Positions 5,686 to 34,167 of a DNA stretch of 64,000 nt are shown here, piece after piece; within the stretch, counting starts at the first letter, position 1; each line of letters opens with the position of its first letter. This stretch comes from Selenomonas sp. AB3002 (GTDB lineage: Bacteria > Bacillota > Negativicutes > Selenomonadales > Selenomonadaceae): positions 1,736,001 to 1,800,000 of the forward strand of contig NZ_JNIO01000008.1 in the NCBI RefSeq assembly GCF_000702545.1. The letters are read 5' to 3'. The notes under the pieces were generated by a model that saw nothing but the letters and a program-made list of their open reading frames with translations, was not told where the DNA came from and made no database searches. The translations under genes were made by a program, and so were the position numbers.

Positions 5686-6547
5686 TGATGATCGCCTCCG
5701 CCATTCTGATGGCCCGCAGATTTTCCTTCACATCATGCACACGCACAATATCCGCCCCCTTCAGGGCGCCTATCACCGAAGTGGCCAGAGTTCCCTCCAA
5801 ACGTTCGTCCACAGGCAGGTCAAGGGTCTTGCCAATCACGCTCTTGCGGCTGGTGCCCAAAAGCAAGGGATAGGCAAAACCATCTATCTCCGTCAGTTCC
5901 TCCTGACGGTTCATGACCATGAGGTTATCCTCCACCGTCTTGCCAAAGCCCACACCGGGGTCAAGAATCAACAGCTCCCGTGGAAGTCCCGCAGCTTCCG
6001 CTATCTCGATGGTACGGCGGAAGAAATCACGCTCTGCCGCTATGACATCGCCTTCATAAGCCTGATAATCCGTGCCCTTCTGGTTGTGCATGGCGATGAC
6101 AGGCACCTGGTACTGAGCCGCCACTTTGGCCATTTCTCCCGGTTCTTCCCTGTACTGGAGCCCCCAGATATCATTGAGGATATCCGCCCCCATTTCCAGG
6201 GCCGCTTCAGCTGTCTCCGCCTTGAAGGTGTCCACGGAAATAGGCAGCCGACACTCGGCAGACAGGGCCTTCAGATAAGGCGTGAGCCTTGCTATCTCCT
6301 CCTCAGCAGGCATGGGCACGAAGCCGGGACGGCTGGACTCGGCGCCGATGTCGATGATATCCGCTCCCTCTGCCTCCATCTGCCGGGCATGGGCCAGAGC
6401 CTCCTCAATCTCCACCCACCTGCCCCCGTCGGAAAAAGAATCGGGAGTCACGTTCAGGATGCCCATGATGAGCGTACGCTTGCCTAGTTCCAATTTTTTT
6501 CCCTTGCGCAGGTCATAATGCCTTTCCACCAAAGTCCTTCTTTTCAT
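5678..6547 (-). CDS. folP: Dihydropteroate synthase
   Basis: Condenses hydroxymethyl-dihydropterin pyrophosphate with p-aminobenzoate; this is the sulfonamide target. The 289-residue TIM barrel shows MGILNVTPDSFSDGG (pterin loop 1), ADIIDIGAESSRPG (loop 2), ISVDTFKAETAEAAL, ILNDIWGLQ, LLILDPGVGFGK, and RVHDV near the C-terminus. ATG 6547 is chosen because AGGGGG lies eight bases upstream; the frame stays open back into folE, but the extra residues are unlike the family. It lies 11 nt after folE. Confidence 0.94.
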   Translation of the reverse strand: MKRRTLVERHYDLRKGKKLELGKRTLIMGILNVTPDSFSDGGRWVEIEEALAHARQMEAEGADIIDIGAESSRPGFVPMPAEEEIARLTPYLKALSAECRLPISVDTFKAETAEAALEMGADILNDIWGLQYREEPGEMAKVAAQYQVPVIAMHNQKGTDYQAYEGDVIAAERDFFRRTIEIAEAAGLPRELLILDPGVGFGKTVEDNLMVMNRQEELTEIDGFAYPLLLGTSRKSVIGKTLDLPVDERLEGTLATSVIGALKGADIVRVHDVKENLRAIRMAEAIING

Positions 6548-6558
6548 CAGAACGCCCC

Positions 6559-7128
6559 CTATTTCTTCTCTCCTCCCAGCAGCAGCCAGGCCTGCTGATA
6601 AAGCCCCTTGTCCTTCAGAAAGTTGCCGGTGCACTCTGTGGTGACAGTACGTGCACCAGGTGCCAGATCACCCCGCATCATCATGCAGAGCTGCTGTGCT
6701 TCCACTGTCACCAGCACACCTTCCGCGCCTACTCCCTCGGCCACAGCCCCGGCAATCTGTCGGGTGAAACGCTCCTGCAGCTGGGGGCGGCGGGACAGGT
6801 GCTCCACCACTTTAGTGAACTTGCTGAAGCCTGCCACCAAACCCTTATGGGGCTGGTAGACAATGTCCACTTCCCCGAAGAAGGGCACCAGATGATGCTC
6901 GCACATGGAGTAAAAGGGAATATGCCTTACCGCCACCAGCCCTGCGGCATCAGACTCAAAGAGCTCCCCCCATTCTTCCTGCTCTACCGGTCCCAGTCCG
7001 CTGAACAACTGCCCATACATTTTGGCAACCCGCTCCGGCGTCTTTTCCATGCCCAAGCTTGTCAAATCAAGGCCCACATTATCCAAAAAATTTTCCATGG
7101 CTTTAGCTGCTGGATTATTATTTTCCAT
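6559..7128 (-). CDS. folE: GTP cyclohydrolase I
   Basis: First committed step of the pterin branch: GTP to dihydroneopterin triphosphate. The 189-residue protein has the zinc-binding MCEHHLVPFFG motif, KTPERVAKMY near the N-terminus, GLVAGFSKFTKVVEHLSRR, and EAQQLCMMMRG with the third zinc-ligand cysteine. ATG 7128 follows GGAGAG; a start at 7155 would lie inside the T-run of the preceding terminator. It leads the folate operon, yet the tatA terminator sits immediately upstream with little room for a promoter between. Confidence 0.94.
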   Translation of the reverse strand: MENNNPAAKAMENFLDNVGLDLTSLGMEKTPERVAKMYGQLFSGLGPVEQEEWGELFESDAAGLVAVRHIPFYSMCEHHLVPFFGEVDIVYQPHKGLVAGFSKFTKVVEHLSRRPQLQERFTRQIAGAVAEGVGAEGVLVTVEAQQLCMMMRGDLAPGARTVTTECTGNFLKDKGLYQQAWLLLGGEKK

Positions 7129-7596: not shown

Positions 7597-8574
7597 TCAG
7601 TAATCACGGTCACCGATAAAATCTGCCACCATGATATATGCTTCCTTCACTTCTTTGGGCAGGGTGTCCGGCAGCACTGCCTTAGCCCGCTCCAGATATT
7701 CGTCAGCCTTTTCCTTGGCCTTGTCGATGCCATCAGTGGCCTTGACGATTTCCAGCGCCCTTTCCACATCTGCGGTACCCATTTCCGGGTCAGTGACAAT
7801 CTGCCGCAGGACTTCAGCCTCGGGGCTGACTTCCAGGGCACGGATCACCGGCAGGGTCACAATGCCCTGGCGGATATCATTGCCCGCAGGCTTGCCCATG
7901 GTTTCTTCAGTCTGAAGAATATCCAGCAAATCGTCGGTGATCTGGAAAGCCATGCCTATGCAGTGGCCATATTCAGCCAGCTTTGCCCCTTCCTCGGGGG
8001 TAAGGCCGCCCACTTCTGCGCCCAAATCACAGCAGATTTCCAGGAAGTCAGCTGTCTTTTTCTGGATGCGGCAGAAGTAATCCTCATAGCCCCGGGAGGC
8101 CTGGTACACTGCATTGTCCTGAATGATCTCACCTACACTGAGATTGCAGACCAGCTCTGCCAGACGCACAGATACCCTGTTGCTGTAGCCGGCAGCAGCG
8201 ATGAGGCTGAAAGCCCGGGCGAAAATATAGTCACCGGACAAAATTGCCACCTGATTGCCCCACTTGGCATTGGCAGTAGGCTCTCCTCTGCGGGTATCGG
8301 AAGAATCTATCACATCATCATGCACCAGGGAAGCCGTATGGATAAGCTCCAAAGCCACCGCCAGGGGCAAAGTGCGCTTGAGGTCAAATTCCTTCCCCCC
8401 CCGGGCAGACAGCAGGCACAAAGCAGGCCGCAGCCGCTTGCCCCCGGAAGTCACCAGATGGGTGCCCACCTCATTGACCAGTTCCTCCTCAGAAGAAACA
8501 GCCTGCAAAAGCTCCTCTTCCAGTACCTCCAAATCCTTTTTTATCACATCAAACATAGCGTTTGGCAAATCCAT
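7597..8574 (-). CDS. Polyprenyl diphosphate synthase (heptaprenyl/octaprenyl type)
   Basis: Long-chain trans-prenyltransferase making the side chain for menaquinone-type quinones or related lipids. The 325-residue product has GGKRLRPALCLL, the first aspartate-rich motif LVHDDVIDSSDTRRG, and the second aspartate-rich region FQITDDLLDI, both intact. Chain length cannot be read from sequence. The start is uncertain: ATG 8574 has its AGG very close, and an internal ATG at about 8553 (MFDVIKKD) fits the family equally well. It is 25 nt upstream of tatA. Confidence 0.9.
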   Translation of the reverse strand: MDLPNAMFDVIKKDLEVLEEELLQAVSSEEELVNEVGTHLVTSGGKRLRPALCLLSARGGKEFDLKRTLPLAVALELIHTASLVHDDVIDSSDTRRGEPTANAKWGNQVAILSGDYIFARAFSLIAAAGYSNRVSVRLAELVCNLSVGEIIQDNAVYQASRGYEDYFCRIQKKTADFLEICCDLGAEVGGLTPEEGAKLAEYGHCIGMAFQITDDLLDILQTEETMGKPAGNDIRQGIVTLPVIRALEVSPEAEVLRQIVTDPEMGTADVERALEIVKATDGIDKAKEKADEYLERAKAVLPDTLPKEVKEAYIMVADFIGDRDY

Positions 8575-8619
8575 CACCTACAACAATCATAATTGCTTGA
8601 CACATTCTATTATTTTACT

Positions 8620-9204: not shown

Positions 9205-10221
9205 TTACGCCTCTCCCTGAGGTGCCCGGGGAGCCTTGGGCGCAGTCAGCTGGCCGGCTTCCCCTGCAGTACTGATGGCCTTGCGCATCTCCGTATCGGC
9301 CTGCACATTGTTGAGGTTATAGTAATCCATCACACCCAGACGGCCCTGACGCAGGGCATCTGCCATGGCATGAGGCACCTCTGCCTGAGCTTCCACCACC
9401 TTGGCCTCCATCTCCTGGGTATAAGCCTTCATTTCCTGCTCCTTGGCTACAGCCATGGCGCGGCGCTCCTCAGCCTTGGCCTGGGCAATGCGCTTGTCGG
9501 CCTCAGCCTGGTCAGTCTGCAGCTCAGCGCCGATATTGCGCCCAACATCCACATCCGCAATGTCAATGGAGAGAATCTCAAAGGCAGTACCTGCATCCAG
9601 CCCCTTGCCCAGCACGGTCTTGGAAATATCATCGGGGTTGGCCAGCACGTCATTGTGGCTCTCAGAGGAACCGACCGTAGTGACAATGCCCTCGCCTACG
9701 CGTGCGATGATGGTAGGCTCGCCAGCACCACCCACCAGCCGGTCAATATTGGCCCGGACAGTAACACGGGCCTTGATCTTCAACTCGATGCCGTTCTTGG
9801 CCACGGCAGAAACCACCGGGGTCTCAATGACCTTGGGGTTGACGCTCATCTGCACAGCTTCAAGCACATTGCGGCCTGCCAAGTCGATGGCAGCGGAGCG
9901 CTCGAAGGGCAGGGGAATCTGAGCGCGGTGGGCAGCAATCAGGGCATCCACCACCTTATCCACGTTGCCGCCAGCCAGATAATGGGCCTCCAGCTGGTTG
10001 ACATTCACATCAAGACCTGCCTTGTTGGCTTTGATAAGGGGCAGGATAATCTTGGAGGGCGTAACCCGGCGCATGCCCATGCCCACCAGCGTGATGATAC
10101 TAACCCGCACATCAGCCGCCATAGCAGAAATCCACAGCCCTATGGGTACGAAGTGCAGGAAGATGCCCGCAAAAATCAGTACAACCAGAAACAAAATGCC
10201 AGAACCAAAAATTGCTTCCAT
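9205..10221 (-). CDS. floA: Flotillin-like protein FloA
   Basis: Scaffold of flotillin-type membrane microdomains. It is 338 residues: an N-terminal membrane hairpin region ([24 protein letters not shown]), the SPFH-like domain ([54 protein letters not shown]), then an Ala/Glu/Lys-rich coiled coil (about 230-290, [16 protein letters not shown]). This matches the Firmicutes FloA (YqfA) family throughout. AAGGAGG precedes the ATG. It follows a short nfeD gene, the usual partner. Confidence 0.93.
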
Positions 10222-23276: not shown

Positions 23277-26033
23277 CTACTTCCACCCCTTCATTAAAAA
23301 CCGCCGTCTTTCCTCATCGTCCAGAACCACCGCGCAACTTTCCCAGTCAACGTGCTCAGTGGTCTGCTTTTCATACCGCAGTTCAAAGGGATGCTTTTTG
23401 GGGATGTTATCTATGATTTTCTTAGCTTGCTCTATATCATCCATGGCCACCTTTATCCATACATCCTCAAGCACATCCGGCAACTGACCGAACATACTGC
23501 TGATTTCCTTCAGCCTCTTAGACAGCAATGCGTGAACACGATCTTCTACAGAGCCTTTGTAACGCATATTGTATATATGCACCTTCTCATGCGCTTGACC
23601 GATACGCTGGATACGGCCTTTGCGCTGTTCCAGACGGGTGGGGTTCCATGGCAAGTCCAGATTTATGAGGCTTCCCAAAGTTTGCAGGTTCAATCCTTCA
23701 GAAGCAGCATCAGTGCCAGTGAGGATTTTGATTTCATGACGGCGCACCATCTGTTTGATATCGTCTTTGCTTACCTTGCGGAAAATACCGTTCTTATAGA
23801 CACCGGACTTGTTGCTGCCCGCATAAAGGCCTATGGTTTCTTGAGCAAACTGCGGTTCCTTAGAAAGTCTTTCTGCCACCCAATTGATGGAATCAAAATA
23901 CTGGGAAAAAATAATGCAGCCAAGGTCTGCAAAGCCATTCCCTGTCAAATATGACAACATATTCTCATACTTAGGATCATCTGCTATATGCTCAGACAAC
24001 AATTTCACCAAATTCTGCAGGATCTGCCGTTCCTCAGGAAGTATGGTCATCCCCTTGCTCTCTTTAATGGTTGGCATAAGAATCAATTGAAACTCAGATT
24101 CCTCATAATCCTCTTCATCAGCGATAAGCAGCTCCGGCTCTTCCTCATTCCATTGGAGCATTTTTTCAGCGGTTAACTTGCCTGCCAGCATCGTACTTCC
24201 CATGCGCTTCAAAAGCATAGTCTTGATGAAGCCGCCCCCTCTGACACGCTGCCCCAGAGACTGGCAAAATTCTTCTGCCAGTTCGTACGCCTGCTTAAGA
24301 TAACCATACAATGGCAAGGCTTCGGCATCACTTTCCCCATACAGTACCACTTCAATGCGTGGCAATTGGCCATTCCGTTCCAAAAATTCCCTGGTGCGGC
24401 GGACAATGTGACGTATGAAAGGATTGTGCTGTGTCATAAAATCCGCCTGCAACACTCGCTTCACCCGGTCAAAGTTACGGTGGCTTGCCATAAGCTCTCT
24501 GAAATTCTCAGCGCTTGCTACAAACTTCTCATCCTGCATATGTAGCTCCCTGCGAAGCTGGCCAAAGGAAATCTTATCTTCCTCCGCTGGGGGCAAAGGA
24601 TTACGCAGCCATTCAACCATCTGGTAAATATTGTCCCCTGTAAATTTCATGCTCTTCTTGCCCGTAACCAAATCTAACGCCATTTTTCTTTTGGTACGCC
24701 AGTTGCTGAAGCGGTTCCCCAATACGCCGTCATCCTTCTGGGACAATATATTCAACAAATCCCACGCCTCAATGGGATACATCTGCACCGGGGTAGCAGT
24801 GGCCAACAGCATACTCTTGGCATTAGGAGAAATAGCAAGCAAAAAGGCTTGCAGATTGTTGCTGACAGGTTTTTCCTCTTCTTTGCCCTCCCCCAGATTT
24901 GACCGTCTTGCCCTGTGGGCCTCGTCCACAATCACACACTCATAATGCTGGTTGAGCAGCTTTTCTTTCAGTTCAGTCCGCCCATTGGTGATGATGCCTT
25001 GCGAGACAATGCCGATACGACGGGGGCATTTGCATATATCTCCTTCAGGATAGCTTATGCCGTTTTCATCCTGCCAGTTCTTCCCCAACCAAACGGCTGA
25101 AGGCAGCCCCAGCAGTGTCAGCATTTCATCCTGCCATTGGCGCATCAGTGTCTTGGGTACGAGAATCAAAATCGGTTTATCTCCATAAAGGGCCATCAGC
25201 TGTGCACTCATGGCCAGCTGTACGGTTTTCCCCAGACCTACCTGGTCAGCCAGTACATAGCGTGCCCCCTGCTTCTTGTGGTCATGGAACACCTGACTGA
25301 TAAATGCCTTCTGATGCTCCCACAATCCCAATTCCCGGCGATAGACAGCCGACTCCACCGCCACCTCGGCAGGTTCCGGGGCCTTGCGCCAGTCTTCCAC
25401 ACCGCCTAAGATTTTCCTGTGGGCAATACGCTTGATATCTTCCACCACAAAATCCGCCAACGGCATGGCCTTAGGGTGGTGCCAGAAGTAATCAAATTCC
25501 GCCTGCACCCACTCCACAGCCTCCGGGGAGCTGTCCTCCCACATAAGCTCGTAGTTCAACTTCCAGGCGGAATAAGTTTCATTTACACTACCCAGGAAAG
25601 ACGTCTGGCTACCATCAGCCAAAGTTATCACCCCGGCCTTGCCATGAATCAAGCCAAAAACATCATTGGGGATAACCTTGACCTCCAGCCTGCCGATTTT
25701 GAGCAGATTATAGAGCTTTTCCAATCTTTGCGGATTCGCGCCATATCTCTTTTCCGGGTCAGTAGCGCACCATTCCCTGTGCTGGGCATTCATAGCAGCA
25801 CTAGCAGTTTCCACATCACAGGCTTCCACCGCAGCATTGCATACCACCCGCACTTTGCCGTTCACGCTTTCCAAGGCTTCTCCGGCCACTTCCAGAATCG
25901 ACGAACTAAAGTAGCCCGCAATACGGTCATAGCTTCTGGCATTTTGCAGCTTGACCGTCAAAAAGGCAGCATCCAGCTTTGAACAGCGGGAAGAATAGCG
26001 CCTAATGAAGCCTTCCCCTTTACACGCCGTCAT
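23277..26033 (-). CDS. SNF2-type helicase with N-terminal PLD-like domain (Hma-like defence module)
   Basis: A 918-residue helicase. Residues about 10-200 form a phospholipase-D-like nuclease fold with His130-Gly-Lys132 and GSVNE. Superfamily 2 motifs follow: motif I ADQVGLGKTVQ (262-272), motif II DEAH (370-373), motif III ATATP, and the C-terminal GTDAASEGLNLQ with motif VI RKGRIQRIGQ. This is the helicase of DUF1156/DUF499 anti-phage loci. The start overlaps the methylase stop by 14 bases, and GGAG supports ATG 26033. Whether the PLD site cuts DNA is unknown; only one HxK is evident. It is the last gene of the module. Confidence 0.88.
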   Translation of the reverse strand: MTACKGEGFIRRYSSRCSKLDAAFLTVKLQNARSYDRIAGYFSSSILEVAGEALESVNGKVRVVCNAAVEACDVETASAAMNAQHREWCATDPEKRYGANPQRLEKLYNLLKIGRLEVKVIPNDVFGLIHGKAGVITLADGSQTSFLGSVNETYSAWKLNYELMWEDSSPEAVEWVQAEFDYFWHHPKAMPLADFVVEDIKRIAHRKILGGVEDWRKAPEPAEVAVESAVYRRELGLWEHQKAFISQVFHDHKKQGARYVLADQVGLGKTVQLAMSAQLMALYGDKPILILVPKTLMRQWQDEMLTLLGLPSAVWLGKNWQDENGISYPEGDICKCPRRIGIVSQGIITNGRTELKEKLLNQHYECVIVDEAHRARRSNLGEGKEEEKPVSNNLQAFLLAISPNAKSMLLATATPVQMYPIEAWDLLNILSQKDDGVLGNRFSNWRTKRKMALDLVTGKKSMKFTGDNIYQMVEWLRNPLPPAEEDKISFGQLRRELHMQDEKFVASAENFRELMASHRNFDRVKRVLQADFMTQHNPFIRHIVRRTREFLERNGQLPRIEVVLYGESDAEALPLYGYLKQAYELAEEFCQSLGQRVRGGGFIKTMLLKRMGSTMLAGKLTAEKMLQWNEEEPELLIADEEDYEESEFQLILMPTIKESKGMTILPEERQILQNLVKLLSEHIADDPKYENMLSYLTGNGFADLGCIIFSQYFDSINWVAERLSKEPQFAQETIGLYAGSNKSGVYKNGIFRKVSKDDIKQMVRRHEIKILTGTDAASEGLNLQTLGSLINLDLPWNPTRLEQRKGRIQRIGQAHEKVHIYNMRYKGSVEDRVHALLSKRLKEISSMFGQLPDVLEDVWIKVAMDDIEQAKKIIDNIPKKHPFELRYEKQTTEHVDWESCAVVLDDEERRRFLMKGWK

Positions 26034-28905
26034 TTGCTATCAACTCCTTCAAGACAAAAGCTGCGGCGGCTTCCTTGTGCCAGGCCTTCATATTCTCGAT
26101 AGAACGGAAAGTGGCGATAAAGGCGAACATTTCCTGCATCAGATCACGGCGATTCCAATAATCCTGCACTTCGGTCTTGAGGTAAGCTCGCCCTTCCTGT
26201 GGCGTGCTCTCGCTAACCTTGGTAGCAATATAAAGGGCCATGAGCACTTGCCTCAGCAAACTGCCACCAAAACCGTCGCCTTCCATATTGCGCCTTGCCC
26301 ACTCACCGCCTGTACGGAGACGCGCAGAATTAGCCTTGGTATCCTTCAGCAGGTCCTTGTAATCTATCACCCCAAAGCCACGGGCCAGCTCCTGATAGGT
26401 AGAAATCTTGTAAATGCCATTCTGCTCTGCCTCCAGGCCCTTGATATAGAACCGCTCCGCCGGGGCAAGCATCCGCCAAAGGAAGTTGTCAAAGTCACGA
26501 GGAATCAGCTGGTCATAGGCAATTTTCTTGGCTTCTTCGATAATCTGCACAATGGGAGATACCTCGCCCTTGGGACGTTTGTGGGAAAGCTCATATTCCA
26601 CGTCAATATCTTCGATTTTCCTTACGGAGGTAAGAACCTTGAGAGCAGCAGCGTAGGCAGCCAGAATATAGTCTGCATCTGTGAAATTGGGGTCTTCTTT
26701 GTCATCCAGCCTCTGCATGCTCTTAATCTGCTCCTTCACCTCATCTTCAATATCTGGAGCCAGTTCGTCAAGATAGGCTGTTTCCGTGCCCTGCTGCTTG
26801 CGGAGCACCAGCAGCACTGTGCCCTTCACATAATTGCCGTTCTTAAGCCCGCTGGCATCTGTCTCCGTTATGATATTCCAAGCCGCCGTCACCTGCAAGC
26901 CCGCAGACCAGACCACCATGGCCAGATCTGCCCATACAGCCACGTCCTGGTGAGTGAACATAATAATCTGCATGCCATCGTCTGGCATATGGCTGGCAAG
27001 GTTGCGATAAATATCAATCATGGACTTATTAAAGCTTTCATCCCTCCCCCTCACAGCCAATACACGCTTGGAATCTGTATACCAATCAGGGAAAGCTTTT
27101 TTCAGCAAGTTTTTATCCCAAGCTAGGAAAAATTCCGTCAGTTCGTGATAGTTGACGGCATCAGCGTAAGGAGGATCCGTTATCCATAAATCAGCCGTAT
27201 TGTCACTAATCCTAGCATCCATCAATGATACACTACTCTTCCCTGTTACCTGTTTGTTATTTATGGGATAGAACCAATAGCTTGAATTATTTTCTAATCC
27301 TTTACTACCAAAATTATAAAATGTATTCAATGCTTGATTATAGAAAGTATGCCCTATATTTTCATTAACAGCAGCATTTATCCAACTACATAATTTTGCA
27401 TTCCAATCAGCTAGTTTATTCATTCCCAACAAACCAATGACTACTTCTTCCTCTTTTATTGCCAGCTTGTCAATATTTTTCATAAACAAACCATGAACCA
27501 GCAACTGCCTGGGCGTAAACAACTGGTGCCAATATTTCCAACCACGAACTCTTATAGGTTCATCTGTCTTTTCACCTTCCGCAATTTCTCCGCTGGGAAT
27601 ATAGCCCTTTTCCTGCCATTCATCGAAACGTTCAGCCAGCAGTTCAACGACCTTTGCTTCTCTAGCAATATCCTCCTGGCTTGGCGTTACATAATAACGA
27701 TATTTGCTCTCCTTGCCACTGGAAGACAGTTCCACATGCTCATACTTCACACAGTATAGCCGTTCCCTAAATACATCATCATGCCGAGGCAAGAAATCCT
27801 TCTTCTCCCACAAGCGCAGACCAGATTTTTCAGCTGTATCATGACGGACTGCCGCAATGGGCACCGTCTGTCGGCAATGGGGGCAGTAAACATTCGTGTC
27901 TCTCACCGTAGCAAGCTTATCGGCTTCAGCTAACTCCTTAGATGTCAAGCCACTCTTAATCTCAATATCAAAACCATCTTCGCCATTATCCTTCAGAATA
28001 GCTGCTGTCTTCGTGCCCTTGCCAATAATCCAGCTGGGTGCCAAGGGCAGACGATAGCCACATTCCGGGCAAGTTATCTCAGTACAATAAAGATAAGAAT
28101 TCGCCCTGTCTCCCGCTTCGTTGGTTTCTATGCCCCACTCTTTAAGCTGCTTATCCACAGCATCATAAACCTTATGCTGGAACTGCCGCAGTTTCGCTAC
28201 CTCTTCATCGCCGGCTCCTGCAATGTGCAAATCTGCCCAAGTCAAAAGCCCTGCAATAGGATTGAGGTCAGAAGCAAACACATCACAACCAATCCTAGCT
28301 GCTTCAAAAGGCACAGAACCGCCCCCGGCAAAGCAGTCTCCCACCGTCAGCCTATGCCCAAAGCGTTTTTTGCTCATAGCATCTACGAACTCCGGCAGAC
28401 TATGTGCCTCCACTCCGTAGTAATCATTTATCTTCGCCCAGGTACTTGGTGCCACTTCAGCTTCTTCAGGACGTAGGCAATACCCCAGCATTTCATCATA
28501 CGAAAAACGAGGCCACAATTTTTTTATAACCCGCTCTTTATCATCGGCCTTCATGGTAGTTTTCCATTTCAGGTTATAAGTATTCGCCAGATACAAAGCT
28601 TTCTCTTCCTCGGTCATCAGCTCTGCCAAGACCTTTAGGGGAGGCTTCTGCTTTTTTCTCTGCCACAAGCCATCTGCATCCATCATCATCAATCTCAGAA
28701 AATTAGCCAAGTCCTGCTTCGGCTGGTCAGTAGCAGGCAGAAGGGCCGCCAGTATTGCCGCACGCACAAGAACAAGCGGCTTCCGCCCCCACCACTTCCC
28801 TAAGCCTGTCAATGTCTGCCCCAAATTAGCTTTCCGTTCTTTATAACTCTCCTTGCTCACCTTGGATACAGGAAACTGGGCTTCGATAAATGATTGCTGC
28901 TTCAT
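26020..28905 (-). CDS. DUF1156-type adenine-specific DNA methyltransferase (Hma-like defence module)
   Basis: A 961-residue DNA methylase of the anti-phage-associated DUF1156 class. The N-terminus NLGQTLTGLGKWWGRKPLVL is the DUF1156 region. The SAM-binding motif is DCFAGGGSVPFEA (190-202) followed by SDLNP (212-216). Zinc-ribbon pairs are CPEC (279-282) and CPHC (341-344). The catalytic DPPY is at 577-580 (ITDPPYADAVNY), typical of N6-adenine methylation. It probably marks self DNA for the module. AGGAG precedes the ATG. A weak terminator-like hairpin separates it from the DUF3780 gene. Confidence 0.9.
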   Translation of the reverse strand: MKQQSFIEAQFPVSKVSKESYKERKANLGQTLTGLGKWWGRKPLVLVRAAILAALLPATDQPKQDLANFLRLMMMDADGLWQRKKQKPPLKVLAELMTEEEKALYLANTYNLKWKTTMKADDKERVIKKLWPRFSYDEMLGYCLRPEEAEVAPSTWAKINDYYGVEAHSLPEFVDAMSKKRFGHRLTVGDCFAGGGSVPFEAARIGCDVFASDLNPIAGLLTWADLHIAGAGDEEVAKLRQFQHKVYDAVDKQLKEWGIETNEAGDRANSYLYCTEITCPECGYRLPLAPSWIIGKGTKTAAILKDNGEDGFDIEIKSGLTSKELAEADKLATVRDTNVYCPHCRQTVPIAAVRHDTAEKSGLRLWEKKDFLPRHDDVFRERLYCVKYEHVELSSSGKESKYRYYVTPSQEDIAREAKVVELLAERFDEWQEKGYIPSGEIAEGEKTDEPIRVRGWKYWHQLFTPRQLLVHGLFMKNIDKLAIKEEEVVIGLLGMNKLADWNAKLCSWINAAVNENIGHTFYNQALNTFYNFGSKGLENNSSYWFYPINNKQVTGKSSVSLMDARISDNTADLWITDPPYADAVNYHELTEFFLAWDKNLLKKAFPDWYTDSKRVLAVRGRDESFNKSMIDIYRNLASHMPDDGMQIIMFTHQDVAVWADLAMVVWSAGLQVTAAWNIITETDASGLKNGNYVKGTVLLVLRKQQGTETAYLDELAPDIEDEVKEQIKSMQRLDDKEDPNFTDADYILAAYAAALKVLTSVRKIEDIDVEYELSHKRPKGEVSPIVQIIEEAKKIAYDQLIPRDFDNFLWRMLAPAERFYIKGLEAEQNGIYKISTYQELARGFGVIDYKDLLKDTKANSARLRTGGEWARRNMEGDGFGGSLLRQVLMALYIATKVSESTPQEGRAYLKTEVQDYWNRRDLMQEMFAFIATFRSIENMKAWHKEAAAAFVLKELIANDGV

Positions 28906-28936
28906 GTAATTGCACTCTCCTACTATCTATACATAA

Positions 28937-28962
28937 AGCCGTCTGCAATGTGCGGACGGCTC
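28937..28962 (-). terminator. Weak terminator-like hairpin between DUF3780 and methylase genes
   Basis: On the minus strand AGCCGTC pairs with GACGGCT over an 11-base loop, followed by TTATGTAT rather than a clean T-run. It may attenuate or process the message inside the defence operon. Confidence 0.4.
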
Positions 28963-29023
28963 ATATATTTCCCTATGCTCTTTGCTTATGCGGTTTGACA
29001 CGATGAAGCAACCTCGTCCATCC

Positions 29024-29584
29024 TTACTCTTCATCTTCCTGTCGCAGAGCATAATCAAACAGCGACTGCTGCTTCGGTTCGTTGATGGGATTTTCCGTCA
29101 AGGCATAGCGAAGCGCCTTGCGCCAGCCACGGTGGTCATCAATCCCCCCCGTGGCAGCATTGGTCATAGTGTAGAGCCACCAACGTTCCTCCGGCTGCAA
29201 GCCCAGCCAGTTCTGCATGGCTCTAGGGATATTCGTCGGGTCGCAGTCCTCGATAGCCCATATGAGCACCATCAGTTCCTTGCCGAAAAGCTCCCCAAAA
29301 ACTGTCTGACGGGTCAAAAACTTCCCTGCCGCACGCTTTTTCTTCTGCAACCTGACATTGAATTCCGTCTTGACTGTCTCCTGCACCTGCTCCCACTTCG
29401 CCAGTGAAATCTCCACCTTGGCCTTGTCACTGAATATGTCTATCTTCTGCACGGCCACCCCATCCTGCCAGCGGAAACGCTCATATATAGTAACCTTATC
29501 TTCTTTACTCTTCTTCAAAGCAAGAAAATGGTGCTGGCTCTCACCTGGCAGGAAGCCAAACCCTATGCTTTTCTCCTTAGTCAT
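29024..29584 (-). CDS. DUF3780 anti-phage-associated protein
   Basis: A 186-residue soluble protein. The N-terminal SIGFGFLPGESQHHFLAL and the WLGLQPEERWWLYTMTNAAT / RGWRKALRYALTENP blocks match the DUF3780 family, which is found almost only with DUF499, DUF1156 and helicase genes. Biochemical function is unknown. The ATG overlaps the DUF499 stop by eight bases. It ends with FDYALRQEDEE. Confidence 0.85.
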   Translation of the reverse strand: MTKEKSIGFGFLPGESQHHFLALKKSKEDKVTIYERFRWQDGVAVQKIDIFSDKAKVEISLAKWEQVQETVKTEFNVRLQKKKRAAGKFLTRQTVFGELFGKELMVLIWAIEDCDPTNIPRAMQNWLGLQPEERWWLYTMTNAATGGIDDHRGWRKALRYALTENPINEPKQQSLFDYALRQEDEE

Positions 29585-32500
29585 CTTGTCTTATTTCTCC
29601 CGGGGAATAAGTGTCTATGCCTATTTTCTTCTCTCGATTGTAATCAATGAAGTTGCGGCCAGTGCCAAAAATCTTCTTCTCAATACCCATAGAGATATTG
29701 ACATCTTTCTCCGTAGCCAGAGTGCGGCGCAACTCATTTATGGTATTTTCCAACACCTCTGCCGTCACCTTACTGCCACCGCCAATATTGAGCTCTATAT
29801 AGCCGCCGTCCCCCTCATTTTCCATGATGGAGATGACCACATTCACATCTTCCACATCAATATTGTATTTTTTCAGGTAGCCCAATTCCTCATAGCATTC
29901 TCGGGTGCTGCTATACCTGACGGACTTGGAAAGATACAGGGGAGAGGCTTCTTTTACCACAATTCCCTGCTTCTTCGCAGCCTGCTCCACCTTTATATCA
30001 TCTCTGGCGCGCACCTCCCCCTTTACCATGGCCGCAACCAGTACGTGCTGGCAGGTGTCCGGCATAGCAAAGGTACCGTCATAAAGACCGCCATTTTCCC
30101 CAGGCTCGGAGCCATCGGTGGTATAGCGAAGCTCTACCCCCTTCTGACTTTCCAGTGTGCACTCATAGACCGTGTTCAGTTGATTTATCTTATGTTTGAT
30201 GGTAATGGGCCGCTGCCATTTCACCGGGTCTCCAGCAGGGTGCTCACCTGTGCTGTCAACACAGAGGAAGGATATTTCCAACGCCTCCGTGACAAAATCA
30301 TTGAGGTTTTCCACAGTCAGGGAACTCTCAGTAGCCTGCGCTCCCTCATCATAAAGAACTCTGTCGCCATATTGAGGACGCAGTTTCAGATGTGCTGGCC
30401 CTGTCTCATGTTCATCGCTCTGCATAGTGACGTTAAGGCTGGTAGGCTCCTTGGGGAAAGGTCCTTTTTCTATATATTCGCCATCCTGTCGCCACAAATC
30501 ACGCTCAAAGCAATACTCCTGCAAATCGTCCAGCATACCAGGATAATACCACAGCCAGCTTGTTTCTGTAGCCGTGCGCTCCCTTATCTCGCTAATCATC
30601 ATCTGCTTGCGGGTGAAGATATTTTTTTCGCAAAGCCCCTGCACCTTTTCTGAAACCTGGTCATTGGAAAATTTATGCTTGGCTAAGAGCGTGTTTATGA
30701 CCTGCTCTTCTCCATTGTAATCATTATCCCTGAACTCCATCATGAAAGCCGCATCCCGCAGTCTCTCCTTCAAAGGATAATGGAGCAGAGTAAAAGTCTC
30801 CCGTGCCGCACTCAGGATAGCAGTCTTCTTCTTTATCTGGGTATCCTTAGCCATCTGCAACTGGGGATTGTCCTCCGCCACATTGCCTTGGGCGCGGATA
30901 TTGCTTATTATCTGCTCTATGGCCTTCAACTCCTTGGCAGAGGTATAAAGCCTCTCCATAGTATCACGATTGCCAGAGAGGAACATGACGCGGTTCTTGT
31001 AATTGGTCGCCTCATAAAAAGCCTGCAACTCAGGGTGCAGACCACCCCTATGTGGCTCAAATACTACCAAAGTAACCTCATCACGGGAAAGCTGTATTTC
31101 GTCCACTGCCGGGAATATCAGCAGCTTTTGATAGCAATTCCCCTGTTTGGGCTGAAAGCAGTTCTGCAGGAATTTCCGCAGAGTAGTTGCCTTGATGTCC
31201 TCGTTGCTATAACTGCCTGTCAGGGACTGCATCTCAGCAATCATATTGCGGGTATTCTGGAAGAAGATATGTCCCTTCTTGTCATTCTGCATATACCAAG
31301 ACTTCATGCTGAAGTCGTCCATGGCACGTTTCAGCAGAGTTATGTCACGGTCAGGAGAGCAGAGATACCCTACCACTTCCTTGGGATCAAGTCCCAAAAG
31401 GGCATTGGGCACATCAGCCAGAGAAGCTACAAGGATAAGCTTGGCGGCATCGCTGGCATTGGTATTTTGGTACTGCTGGTCAATCTCCTCCGCAAAAGCC
31501 TTGCCGCCGGAAGCTATGTCCGTAGCTATAGCCTGGGTCAGCGAACTCTTGATTCCCTGAATCTCTCCCAACATCCCCCTGTTGTTGAGGTCAAAGTCAT
31601 AAACGTGTACGAGATATTTTTTCTTAGCCCGTTCCCCATCGTTCTCATAAAGCCCTGCCACAATACGCCTCATAAAGCGAATAAGGCCTCGTGTCTGCTG
31701 AAAACCTGGGTTTTCCTTGAATCGGGCATAGAGGTTCCGCATAGCGGGGTGAAAAGGATATGCCTCTTTGATACCCGTATAGATTCTGTCGGGCTGCTCA
31801 TTAGTATAGCCCATCTGCTTGGCTTCCAGCACAGCCTTTTGATAGGCTATGGCTATTTCATTGACTTCTTCATCCACCGGAAGTTCTGCAAATAAACGCT
31901 TCCTCAATATGTGGTAAACTTCATCAGAAGCGCTGCCCACGGGCTCAATATCTCGGCTTGTGCGATTCACCTCATTGGAAAGGTTCTTGAAAGAACTGCG
32001 AATCAGTTCACTGCCACTCTCATAGGTCGCCTCCAAATCCGAGATAACCACACAGACATTGGTCAGTTTGTCCTTGCTCAGAGCCGAAAACAAATTAGAC
32101 AAGGCTGTAGCTGTAACCACCGACAAGTCAGAATTGCCCACGGTAGTAGCCTTGGCATTCTCCAAATAAGGGGGAATTTCATCCAGCAGAATCAGCAACG
32201 GCTCTCCCTGCAGCAAATTCACCCAGGCTGTTTCCCCCGGAGCCTGCAATGGTGAATAATAATCCCTGAAAACATCCTTCTTCCCCAGCTGCTCTGCTAT
32301 AGCTCCCCAAATGCCAAACTTGGCATCAGATTCACGTCCATTGAAAGCTACCACACGAACAGCCCCAAGCTTCCTGTATTCACCTGCCTCGGGCAGTACC
32401 TCAGCACGATAAGAGGGATACATAGAGAGAAGCCCCAACGCTATCATATTATGTGTCTTGCCGCCGCCCATAGCCTGCGTGAGCTTAACCAGCCCTGTAG

Positions 32501-32693
32501 CGCCAATGCCCATAAAACGCTGAAAAGCAACCGTCAGCAGTTCTTTCATGCCATCAGTCAGATAGTTCTCTGCAAAAAAATCCTCTGGGTCTATCTTCTT
32601 TTCGATGAGATTCATGAGATGAAGTACATCATCCCGTTTATTCTCGTCAAACACACTCTGACGAGGCTTGCACAGATCAAACAGCGTTCTCAT
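29577..32693 (-). CDS. DUF499 AAA-type ATPase (Hma-like defence module)
   Basis: A 1038-residue ATPase, the largest protein of the defence module. The Walker A region is QAMGGGKTH (73-81) and Walker B is LLILLDEIPPYL (166-177). A sensor-like region VCVVISDLEATYESG follows. The C-terminal third contains a chitobiase/HexA-C-like segment (VELRYTTDGSEPGENGGLYD), and residues near 900-1000 form a charged mixed fold. DUF499 proteins are likely motors coupled to the helicase and methylase. ATG 32693 is fixed by AGGGGG nine bases upstream; the frame stays open 33 nt further. Confidence 0.88.
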   Translation of the reverse strand: MRTLFDLCKPRQSVFDENKRDDVLHLMNLIEKKIDPEDFFAENYLTDGMKELLTVAFQRFMGIGATGLVKLTQAMGGGKTHNMIALGLLSMYPSYRAEVLPEAGEYRKLGAVRVVAFNGRESDAKFGIWGAIAEQLGKKDVFRDYYSPLQAPGETAWVNLLQGEPLLILLDEIPPYLENAKATTVGNSDLSVVTATALSNLFSALSKDKLTNVCVVISDLEATYESGSELIRSSFKNLSNEVNRTSRDIEPVGSASDEVYHILRKRLFAELPVDEEVNEIAIAYQKAVLEAKQMGYTNEQPDRIYTGIKEAYPFHPAMRNLYARFKENPGFQQTRGLIRFMRRIVAGLYENDGERAKKKYLVHVYDFDLNNRGMLGEIQGIKSSLTQAIATDIASGGKAFAEEIDQQYQNTNASDAAKLILVASLADVPNALLGLDPKEVVGYLCSPDRDITLLKRAMDDFSMKSWYMQNDKKGHIFFQNTRNMIAEMQSLTGSYSNEDIKATTLRKFLQNCFQPKQGNCYQKLLIFPAVDEIQLSRDEVTLVVFEPHRGGLHPELQAFYEATNYKNRVMFLSGNRDTMERLYTSAKELKAIEQIISNIRAQGNVAEDNPQLQMAKDTQIKKKTAILSAARETFTLLHYPLKERLRDAAFMMEFRDNDYNGEEQVINTLLAKHKFSNDQVSEKVQGLCEKNIFTRKQMMISEIRERTATETSWLWYYPGMLDDLQEYCFERDLWRQDGEYIEKGPFPKEPTSLNVTMQSDEHETGPAHLKLRPQYGDRVLYDEGAQATESSLTVENLNDFVTEALEISFLCVDSTGEHPAGDPVKWQRPITIKHKINQLNTVYECTLESQKGVELRYTTDGSEPGENGGLYDGTFAMPDTCQHVLVAAMVKGEVRARDDIKVEQAAKKQGIVVKEASPLYLSKSVRYSSTRECYEELGYLKKYNIDVEDVNVVISIMENEGDGGYIELNIGGGSKVTAEVLENTINELRRTLATEKDVNISMGIEKKIFGTGRNFIDYNREKKIGIDTYSPGEIRQDD

Positions 32694-32787
32694 CGCATAT
32701 CCCCCTAATATACTACATGCATCCACGTCACATATACAGCACCAGCCGTTGGCAGGGCATTGCTGTCCCCGTCAGCGGCTAGTTCAT

Positions 32788-33468
32788 TTAGGCTAATTCA
32801 TTTAACGAATCCTGGTTATTTTTTTTCCATGGAGTCTCCAAACCATCAATATGCTCAAATAAATCTGCCTTTATATCCGCTCCCATAGGGTCTAGAATAA
32901 AATCTATCCCCTCTCTTCTTGCAAGTTTTGCAGCGGGAACAAAATCACTGTCACCAGCAATTAAGATTATTTGATCAACCAGTCTTTTAAGTGCCAACGA
33001 AACTATATCTATCCCTATGCGCATGTCAACACCCTTTTGCTGGGCATTGAATTCAAAATCACCTTCAGTTAAACTTTCAAGCGTACGCTTTCCTGCCAAT
33101 AAATCCTTGGTAACGCTTGCCCGCAAATTATAATTAGGTCGTTCTGCCAAAACACCTAATCGAAGTGCGTACTTGCGTCTTCTTTTCAGTTCATCCATAA
33201 AAGAAGTTGTCCACGTACTAGTATCAGATTTTTCTAAATCTACATTCTTCTTCGTAAGTGGATGATAGACACTTCGTCTGCTTGGAGCACAATCATAATA
33301 AAAAATTCTATATAGCTGACGCTCTACATTGCCATCTTTCTTATCCAAATGTGCCAAGCAATAGGCGTTCAATTCTCTGGCACGTTCCTCAGCAGTCTTC
33401 ATTCCCCACTGATGCTTGGCTCTTTTCCTGTAAAATCCACCATCAACCAAAATCGCTGTCTTTATCAT
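32788..33468 (-). CDS. NYN-domain (LabA/DUF88-like) putative nuclease
   Basis: A 226-residue PIN-fold NYN protein, a predicted RNase or DNase. The first conserved aspartate is in TAILVDGGFYRKR (Asp9), and the acidic cluster continues at KGVDMRIGIDIV and ILIAGDSDFVPAAKLARREG. ATG 33468 is preferred over GTG 33477 by its GGGTG spacing. It is the first gene after a strong promoter and a structured leader, about 95 nt upstream of DUF499, and points into the defence operon. Its place suggests an accessory or embedded effector; this is inference. Confidence 0.85.
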   Translation of the reverse strand: MIKTAILVDGGFYRKRAKHQWGMKTAEERARELNAYCLAHLDKKDGNVERQLYRIFYYDCAPSRRSVYHPLTKKNVDLEKSDTSTWTTSFMDELKRRRKYALRLGVLAERPNYNLRASVTKDLLAGKRTLESLTEGDFEFNAQQKGVDMRIGIDIVSLALKRLVDQIILIAGDSDFVPAAKLARREGIDFILDPMGADIKADLFEHIDGLETPWKKNNQDSLNELA

Positions 33469-33489
33469 GATTATCACCCAAAATATAAG

Positions 33490-33544
33490 AGCCCCAAGGA
33501 TTCCTCCACTCCTGTATAATCGGAGGGCGTACTACCATGGGGCT
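33490..33544 (-). ncRNA. Structured 5' leader of the NYN gene
   Basis: On the minus strand AGCCCCATGG pairs with CCTTGGGGCT (one mismatch), and inside it CCTCC pairs with GGAGG around a loop containing ATTATACAGG. The element lies in the predicted 110-nt 5' UTR between the promoter at 33584-33612 and the NYN start. A modest T-rich stretch (CTTATATTTT) follows, so an attenuator or ligand- or protein-responsive leader is possible. I match it to no riboswitch class I know. Confidence 0.55.
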
Positions 33545-33583
33545 ATTAAACCATTATAAGCATAAGCACTCAAGTACACCTTC

Positions 33584-33612
33584 ATTTTATAGCACGTATT
33601 TCATTTTGTCAA
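33584..33612 (-). promoter_or_regulatory. Promoter of the NYN/defence operon
   Basis: On the minus strand TTGACA (33607-33612) is 17 bases from TAAAAT (33584-33589). It is the only strong promoter seen upstream of the five-gene defence module. Confidence 0.75.
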
Positions 33613-33642
33613 ACATTTTCCACTATATCGTTCAGCTTTTAT

Positions 33643-33674
33643 GTCGACAAGGAATGTGCATTGGCGTTATAATT
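33643..33674 (+). promoter_or_regulatory. Promoter of the UPF0756 gene
   Basis: TCGACA is followed after 18 bases by a perfect TATAAT (ending about 33674), with the AAGGAGG ribosome site 24 bases on. It diverges from the defence-operon promoter. Confidence 0.7.
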
Positions 33675-33711
33675 AGAAAATCTTAGCAAGCCATGATAAG
33701 GAGGATTTGCA

Positions 33712-34167
33712 TTGTACATAGAATATATCACCCTCATCGCTGTCCTGCTGCTTAGTTATTTCGGACACAATATGACCGTAGTCTATGCGACAGGCATCGT
33801 GCTGCTGCTGAAGGTGCTTGGCCTCACCCCGGCCCTCGAAGCCCTGGGCACCCAGGGCCTCAACTGGGGCATCATCATCCTCACCGCTGCCATACTGGTG
33901 CCCATTGCCAACGGCACCATCACCATCCACACCATGATTGATGCCTTCCGCACCCATGCGGGCATCATAGCTATTGTGGCAGGCCTCCTGGCGGCGCTGG
34001 CCGGGGGCAGCGGTGTGGAGTTACTCAAGAGCACTCCTGATGTGATTCCGGCCCTCATCATCGGCACTATGGCAGGGGTCATCTTCTTCCACGGAGTGGC
34101 CGTAGGACCGCTGATTGCCGGGGGCGTGACCTACTTTGTGCTGCAGATTATAGGAAGACTCAGCTGA
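33712..34167 (+). CDS. UPF0756 (DUF441) membrane protein
   Basis: A 151-residue integral membrane protein with about four helices. The family stretches are GLNWGIIILTAAILVPIANG, GIIAIVAGLLAALAGGSGVE and PALIIGTMAGVIFFHGVAVG. Function is unknown in all species. The start is TTG 33712, seven bases after a perfect AAGGAGG; no ATG competes. It is a single gene between its promoter and a bidirectional terminator. Confidence 0.9.
   Translation: MYIEYITLIAVLLLSYFGHNMTVVYATGIVLLLKVLGLTPALEALGTQGLNWGIIILTAAILVPIANGTITIHTMIDAFRTHAGIIAIVAGLLAALAGGSGVELLKSTPDVIPALIIGTMAGVIFFHGVAVGPLIAGGVTYFVLQIIGRLS

Follow-up and report, generated by a model that had tools for sequence, protein, structure and literature searches.

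A Conserved Hairpin RNA Related to TEG147 Ahead of Predicted NYN-Domain Ribonuclease Genes in Bacteria and Their Mobile Elements

What does a small RNA hairpin do directly ahead of the gene for a predicted ribonuclease, and does it belong with that gene or with the defence genes that follow? The question is raised by a 64,000-nucleotide stretch of Selenomonas sp. AB3002 (contig NZ_JNIO01000008.1; hereafter the window). Here an NYN-domain RNase gene (minus strand, 32788–33468, 226 aa from ATG; Pfam PF01936; PHROG 5783, of unknown function) is followed on the same strand by genes for a DUF499 ATPase, a DUF3780 protein, a DUF1156 methyltransferase and a PLD-SNF2 helicase (23277–32726; BREX-related, type-2 BR), which are neighbours lying outside the conserved RNA-NYN unit described below. 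The ATG at 33468 is a more likely start for NYN than the GTG at 33477. The original prediction saw in the NYN leader a possible cis-regulatory RNA at the head of a defence operon, a reading of the hairpin that is, overall, partly supported.

The hairpin itself is real: the minus strand from 33544 to 33490 has a minimum-energy fold of -25.2 kcal/mol, which matches the two-tier shape that had been described for the 5' UTR. The arms of its outer stem, P1 (33535–33544 and 33490–33499), form nine pairs and one U-U mismatch, and enclose an internal loop with the strands UAGUA (33530–33534) and GAAU (33500–33503). The inner stem is rich in G+C, with CUCC/GGAG followed by CC/GG across a bulged U in the minimum-energy fold; its distal part, P3 (CUCC/GGAG, 33509–33525), carries a nine-base apical loop, GAUUAUACA, which has seven or eight bases in most aligned relatives, the covariance model setting the window's P3 one base off register. 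The hairpin alone (a 59-nt stretch) has a z of -2.67, with 4 of 200 dinucleotide shuffles folding equally well or better, and the entire 100-nt leader is unremarkable by itself (z -1.28; 22 of 200 shuffles). Taken alone, then, the hairpin is moderately unusual, and it is the comparison with relatives that lifts it above chance. The predicted U-rich stretch follows directly as an interrupted U-run, CUUAUAUUUU (about 33489–33480), which is terminator-like. A simple terminator scan found none at the hairpin; its loop limit of 8 bases leaves this hairpin out. The near-consensus promoter was likewise found where expected, as a sigma-70-type TTGACA-17-TAAAAT on the minus strand (33612–33584; 11 of 12 matches), and, given this position, its predicted transcription start at about 33577 lies upstream of the element, which is thus part of the predicted transcript; nothing points to transcription beginning below it. 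There are no tandem copies within 33400–33720, and relatives likewise appear by eye to have a single hairpin.

Homologues of NYN were taken from GTDB species genomes (the best 80 of 220 loci) and from 150 relatives. The family count of 72 GTDB loci leaves out the near-duplicates L028, L029, L030, L032, L078, L087, L092 and L104, keeps some near-identical pairs such as L085/L088, and does not extend to the distant NYN loci L015–L027. A covariance model, R1, with the window among its 22 training sequences, matches the window at 33547–33480 with 64 bits (E 3.7e-14), the whole structured RNA, hairpin and U-run, being placed at 33478–33548. In the source genome the element is single-copy, the next match having an E of 0.27. 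R1 matched just upstream of NYN, at E <= 1, in 68 of the 72 loci; 18 of the 72 had served in training, and 50 of the remaining 54 matched, including L031, whose leader is identical to that of a training locus. On R1's four misses a further model, R2, recovered L066 and gave a marginal match at L090 (E 0.07), leaving L040 and L079 as NYN genes with neither an R1 nor an R2 match in the leader; the sources of R2 omitted L040, L060, L066, L074, L075, L079, L081, L088 and L090, some of them weak or non-scoring, and rows above E 5e-4 were lost.

Covariation upstream of NYN homologues, which had been proposed as a check, is found at 16 pairs, all of them, including the nine pairs of P1, changed on both sides among 71 distinct sequences. 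Aligning 22 leaders with plain MAFFT, with no structure fitting, leads to the same result: there are 16 consensus pairs, 13 of them with both-side changes, standard pairs fill 94.9% of the pair cells (84.6% in shuffles), and covariation scores 0.439 vs 0.228 (0 of 500 shuffles reaching either value; slid controls 0.06–0.21). In the 72-row alignment, which was fitted to the model and hence is biased towards it, 92.5% of cells are standard vs 73.2%, the covariation score is 0.646 vs 0.265 (0 of 500 shuffles), and both-side changes occur at 16 pairs, a count that 4 of 500 shuffles reach. G-U pairs fill 50 of the 1140 pair cells. Several unpaired positions vary less than the stems do: the apical A and U, and the A that closes the 5' internal strand, are present in 72 of 72, the A at the second position of the 3' internal strand in 71, and the U preceding the 5' A in 68, and in the outer stem the sequence varies and pairing is kept. 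Such variable stems with constant loops suggest an RNA that is recognised via its loops. The internal loop presumably resembles a loop E or bulged-G motif, and we mention only as an idea that the hairpin might mimic an anticodon loop or the 23S sarcin-ricin loop. The element occurs in Bacillota, Actinomycetota, Spirochaetota, Pseudomonadota, Verrucomicrobiota and Fibrobacterota, in many cases in MAGs. On this comparative evidence, the hairpin belongs to a widespread, conserved predicted RNA ahead of one particular family of NYN RNases.

The flanks of the hairpin are conserved in kind. A sense-strand U-run (at least 5 T in the 8 positions right after the stem) is present in 66 of the 72 relatives, vs 14 and 11 of 72 at two upstream control sites and 18 of 72 on the opposite strand. 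One group of leaders, mostly from Lachnospiraceae or Clostridia, has UUUACUCGUUU after the stem in place of a clean U-run, which makes termination doubtful in that group. In 46 of 72 relatives, the 120 nt that precede the element contain a promoter-like pair with at least 10 of 12 matches, vs 6% of shuffles. The distance from the end of the model to the NYN start codon has a median of 12 nt (58 loci). Sequestration of the ribosome-binding site by the hairpin was considered and looks rather unlikely, since by eye the Shine-Dalgarno (SD) sequence lies 3' of the hairpin; a 5/6 SD match is present in 23 of the 58.

That the NYN product is an RNase is the natural expectation; NYN relatives are RNases (PMC11346440, in part). 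An AF2 model of the protein has a mean pLDDT of 91.4, and the nearest solved folds are the NYN domain of MARF1 (Z 16.5) and VPA0982 (Z 16.3), the next row standing at 10.5. The aspartates D9, D154, D173 and D175 do not vary among 71 NYN sequences and are putative metal ligands, as expected from the family.

The linkage of RNA and NYN was followed across further genomes; the surveys of more than 40 genomes used stricter filters, with which weak matches were lost, and those of the relatives and of Clostridia include the model's training loci among their matches. Among the 150 relatives, the RNA directly precedes every one of the 13 strong NYN genes (E < 1e-50); 10 of these elements are in R2's own alignment, and those of G032, G044 and G088 were not. 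The 391 Clostridia genomes contain 10 NYN genes and 17 RNA matches, of which 9 are paired (3 of them training elements) and 8 are solo (none of them training elements), the NYN of G575 having no match. By eye, the leader of this last gene (L253, about 1390–1490) seems to have a hairpin and then a U-run. In 299 Bacilli genomes, 5 NYN genes and 3 RNA matches were found: one intact pair (G150), one RNA with a broken NYN (G191) and one short hairpin that looks like chance (G255); the NYN genes of G277, G257 and G350 have no model match. In viral contigs, the RNA is strong in 35, weak in 3 and absent in 9 of the 47 loci that were found by NYN and had upstream DNA. Three loose RNA patterns picked out 51 viral stretches, 10 of which passed R2; 8 of the 10 adjoin NYN, 1 is an edge-cut locus with NYN on the contig (L134) and 1 is solo, and several of these contigs had also been found by the NYN search. 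The stem is thus conserved upstream of other NYN genes, as the original prediction had required. Solo RNAs with an intact core and no NYN by tblastn occur in Clostridia and Negativicutes; several NYN-less units carry a promoter-like site and a U-run by eye. Going by gene names read by eye, solo RNAs occur in the vicinity of integrase and toxin-antitoxin genes. Weak or degenerate examples exist among the solo copies, and that of G136 is a likely chance match.

A riboswitch or another known Rfam family at the leader was considered and rejected, since the gathering-level scan of the window gave no family and TEG147 (RF03535) was the sole recurrent family in relaxed scans of eight loci. The TEG147 model matches the window at 33547–33486 with 30.4 bits (E 4.6e-4), which is below its gathering score of 56.1. 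The alignment runs end to end over model positions 1–60 of 60 with two non-standard pairs, so that the consensus structure is retained, and the stem, the AGUA/GAA internal loop and the apical AUA are the same. In a relaxed scan of eight loci, TEG147 fell on the leaders of four (L062, L064, L032 and L036; best 43.4 bits), and the other matches lay outside the leaders, save for a weak mir-1 overlap at the leader of L064. When four genomes were searched with TEG147, the model passed its cut-off ahead of NYN in S. borealis (82.3 bits) and S. hominis (63.9), fell just short of it in S. azizii (52.6) and gave no match in Lactococcus. As the S. borealis and S. hominis leaders pass the cut-off, staphylococcal TEG147 and the NYN leaders make up one continuous family. 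In Rfam, TEG147 is a staphylococcal RNA, whereas the family found here spans several phyla and stands mostly ahead of NYN; judged by its sequence, the window's RNA is a distant relative of TEG147 and no formal member.

Among the bona fide sRNAs reported for S. aureus HG003 is Teg147, 60 nt long (PMC5826253, in part). It is expressed from a genomic island (PMC3053349, in part), and its Rfam family originated in a student course (PMC7779021, in part). In a genus sample of 81 Staphylococcus genomes, TEG147 was found in 18 at E <= 0.01, 14 of them above the cut-off, with 21 matches in total. Behind it lies an intact NYN in six (L110, L111, L114, L117, L123 and L124), a broken NYN in three (L118, L119 and L122), and a short, stop-interrupted trace of the first codons and their ribosome-binding region in five (L113, L115, L116, L120 and L121); the remaining seven matches (L125–L131) are weak or ambiguous. 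High TEG147 scores in L113, L115, L116 and L121, and the position of the match in L113 (390,012 on the contig vs 386,294 reported for HG003), suggest the S. aureus group for these four. In these S. aureus-like genomes the RNA is retained beside a dead NYN remnant. Its mean identity among the four is 0.92 vs 0.66 on the promoter side, and the 160 nt behind it, beginning with the dead remnant, reach 0.89–0.94 (60-nt windows, to position 1720; 0.85 over 240 nt). Since the RNA is conserved no better than the 160 nt that follow, these four genomes give no sign of purifying selection on the solo RNA. Two Staphylococcus-group genomes (L129 and L130, 1494–1557) contain a second, AT-rich and degenerate TEG147-like copy with no NYN match.

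Phage records with an NYN homologue number 15 among 50,697, and plasmid records 163 among 72,556. Streptococcus phage Javan85 carries, in this order, a repressor, the RNA, NYN and an integrase, and the RNA also precedes NYN in Dorea phage DO134P1 (47.4 bits) and Moraxella phage Mcat4 (37.1 bits). Downstream neighbours (n=55) include 18 tyrosine integrases and 5 resolvases, and upstream neighbours (n=60) include 12 HTH_3 proteins and 8 with the S24 peptidase domain of phage repressors; the genes were picked by a naive ORF caller, and the counts cover 55 of its 66 on the downstream side and 60 of its 65 on the upstream side. The predicted promoter-RNA-NYN assembly is, by its gene contexts, a separate mobile unit that often adjoins a phage repressor or integrase. 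The lambdoid Escherichia phage ev099 (L182, 4877–5861) has a 41%-identical NYN between the cI-type repressor and N, and at least 80% of this segment is present in 73 of 5,426 E. coli genomes. R2 finds no match in its leader, which has a different, layered hairpin and U-run (z -5.5). The interval between the repressor and N is, by position alone, the place of the rexAB exclusion locus in lambda. Of seven such diverged NYN leaders that were folded, five beat shuffles (z from -3.3 to -5.5); for L168 (10 of 200, z -1.8) and L185 (13 of 200, z -1.5) an advantage over shuffles is not evident.

Several single cases may be recorded beside these counts. On a Thermus thermophilus plasmid (L184, 1–8681), a hairpin-led NYN lies within a BREX locus, between the helicase and the N6-methylase gene, and a Campylobacter pTet-type plasmid (L183, 3692–3775) has an NYN of 44% identity, preceded by a hairpin that looks unrelated. 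Viral contig L160 carries the RNA twice (5928–5993 and 6940–7006), of which the copy ahead of NYN is weak and the other is strong (62.9 bits), standing before what by eye is an integrase-like start. In L310 (also L206), a 105-nt promoter-plus-RNA-like unit with a degenerate RNA core is duplicated (8490–8594 and 9689–9793; 90% identical), each copy standing directly ahead of a type II toxin-antitoxin-like operon (MqsRA-like, HicAB-like); no integron array or integrase was seen by eye in 20 kb.

Covarying structure, near-invariant loops, a strand-specific U-run, promoter-like sites, linkage to NYN and carriage by phages and plasmids together show that a predicted promoter, the RNA and NYN make up one unit. 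What such a unit may do follows from its order: a promoter, an RNA hairpin of about 60–70 nt that doubles as a terminator-like signal, and then the RNase gene. Most transcripts would end at the hairpin and yield a small RNA, and a minority would read through into NYN, giving much RNA and little NYN. The small RNA might then bind its NYN partner via the conserved loops and keep it quiet until phage infection or loss of the element upset transcription, whereupon the short-lived RNA would drop and the RNase act; these last two steps are the least certain. As a whole, we regard an RNA that acts like an antitoxin on an RNase in lysogeny cassettes as the best explanation, with a confidence somewhat short of even. 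In its favour are the covarying structure, the NYN linkage, the terminator-like tail, the promoter-like sites, the discrete Teg147 and the NYN leaders that pass the TEG147 cut-off, the lysogeny setting and the invariant aspartates, as well as the diverged hairpin and U-run leaders of NYN in lambdoid phages and on the Thermus plasmid. Against it stand the solo RNA that is no better conserved than its flank, the leaders with UUUACUCGUUU, the degenerate solo copies, the NYN genes with no model match (L040, L079, G277, G575, G257, G350 and 9 of 47 viral loci), the two diverged leaders that do not clearly beat shuffles, and the training loci among the survey matches. The solo RNA units fit a trans-acting product, but leftovers of broken units also explain them.

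Nearly as likely as this antitoxin-like RNA is a leader that acts in cis only, by feedback in which NYN binds or cuts the hairpin of its own mRNA, or by a hairpin that fixes a low level of read-through, the released RNA then having no job. The place of the element right before the ribosome-binding region and ahead of most NYN genes of the family suits such a leader, as does the RNase nature of the NYN relatives (PMC11346440, in part), and solo copies may simply be leftovers, as the dead remnants and flank-like RNA conservation of the S. aureus-like genomes suggest; the intact-core solo copies of Clostridia and Negativicutes, which lack a tblastn NYN match, and the observation of Teg147 as a discrete sRNA (PMC5826253, in part) argue the other way. 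An attenuator that senses infection or a ligand, in which a phage factor, an antiterminator, a ribosome or a small ligand acts on the loops and allows read-through into NYN, could account for a terminator-like hairpin with invariant loop bases ahead of an RNase in lysogeny cassettes, and for the diverged lambdoid copy between cI and N. We nevertheless consider it improbable, as neither an alternative antiterminator pairing nor a conserved leader peptide is seen by eye and the core is one small hairpin. A single small hairpin is small for a ligand riboswitch. Least of all do we expect a passive element, whether a terminator or insulator of the usual kind or a hairpin that acts as DNA, for example a recombination site: a U-run behind a strong stem and the frequent recombinase neighbours recall one, but near-invariant unpaired bases, a promoter-like site upstream, compensatory changes, G-U cells (50 among 1140) and a U-run on one strand only make it very improbable, and the duplicated unit of L310 shows no integron-like array by eye.

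The antitoxin-like reading invites comparison with the type III toxin-antitoxin systems ToxIN, CptIN and TenpIN, which are recognised by a single promoter, an RNA, a terminator and an RNase gene, and reside on mobile elements (PMC5086642, in part). By predicted features, RNA-NYN has the same layout of promoter, RNA, Rho-independent terminator and RNase gene, the window's U-run being an interrupted one. However, the type III antitoxin consists of tandem repeats and the RNA here is one hairpin; the type III toxin has the ToxN or MazF-Kid-like fold and NYN is NYN/PIN-like; and, unlike in type III systems, the RNA-NYN hairpin is itself the terminator-like signal. As the layout is shared and the repeats and fold are not, RNA-NYN may work like a type III system without being one. 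The CRISPR-associated NYN ribonuclease of Bacteroides fragilis is likewise an NYN-family RNase in a defence setting, with another gene context (PMC11346440, in part), and no comparable leader RNA is mentioned in the accessible portion of that paper. Among open-licence PMC papers we found no literature link between NYN and a TEG147-like RNA, which is no proof of novelty. The pairing gives the orphan sRNA family TEG147 a gene partner and makes phage genes labelled 'hypothetical' (PHROG 5783) part of a two-part module whose mechanism can be tested. For S. aureus Teg147 it offers a plausible origin, as the remainder of an RNA-NYN unit that broke. Should the RNA restrain the RNase, an NYN-based, RNA-controlled effector from the lysogeny region of temperate phages would be added to the kinds known from type III systems. 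The boldest form of this reading is that a single-hairpin terminator RNA inhibits its cognate NYN RNase in phage lysogeny cassettes of several phyla and that solo RNAs, including Teg147, survive as stand-alone antidotes, which together would amount to a new class of modules, made of RNA and protein, that are toxin-antitoxin-like or serve exclusion. As a whole we consider this form rather unlikely; if true, solo RNAs might shield cells or phages from NYN.

The one part of the original prediction that fails is the natural setting at the head of a defence operon. The gene set behind NYN in the window does consist of anti-phage-associated families and matches the type-2 BR system of PMC12839542 (in part), with DUF1156 and the PLD helicase above their NCBIfam cut-offs and DUF499 and DUF3780 below theirs. 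Nevertheless, DUF499, DUF3780, DUF1156 or PLD-helicase genes stand beside none of 80 GTDB NYN loci (at least 1 kb behind NYN being present in 75 and at least 3 kb in 66), and in all four other DUF499 loci of relatives the operon begins with DUF499 and NYN is absent. That setting is rejected on these loci: RNA-NYN behaves as an independent mobile unit and is no regular part of the type-2 BR operon, the window being the only case seen beside these genes. The word 'NYN' has 0 occurrences in the main text of PMC12839542, which counts PIN-endoRNases among the auxiliary effectors of BREX and related systems (in part). Within the window, a simple scan found no minus-strand promoter or terminator between NYN and DUF499, so in this one genome the defence genes, too, may be under the control of the leader. 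On the other side of the leader, a divergent promoter (TCGACA-18-TATAAT, 33644–33673, plus strand) faces a DUF441 gene at 33712, and the NYN leader and DUF441 appear to be divergently transcribed.
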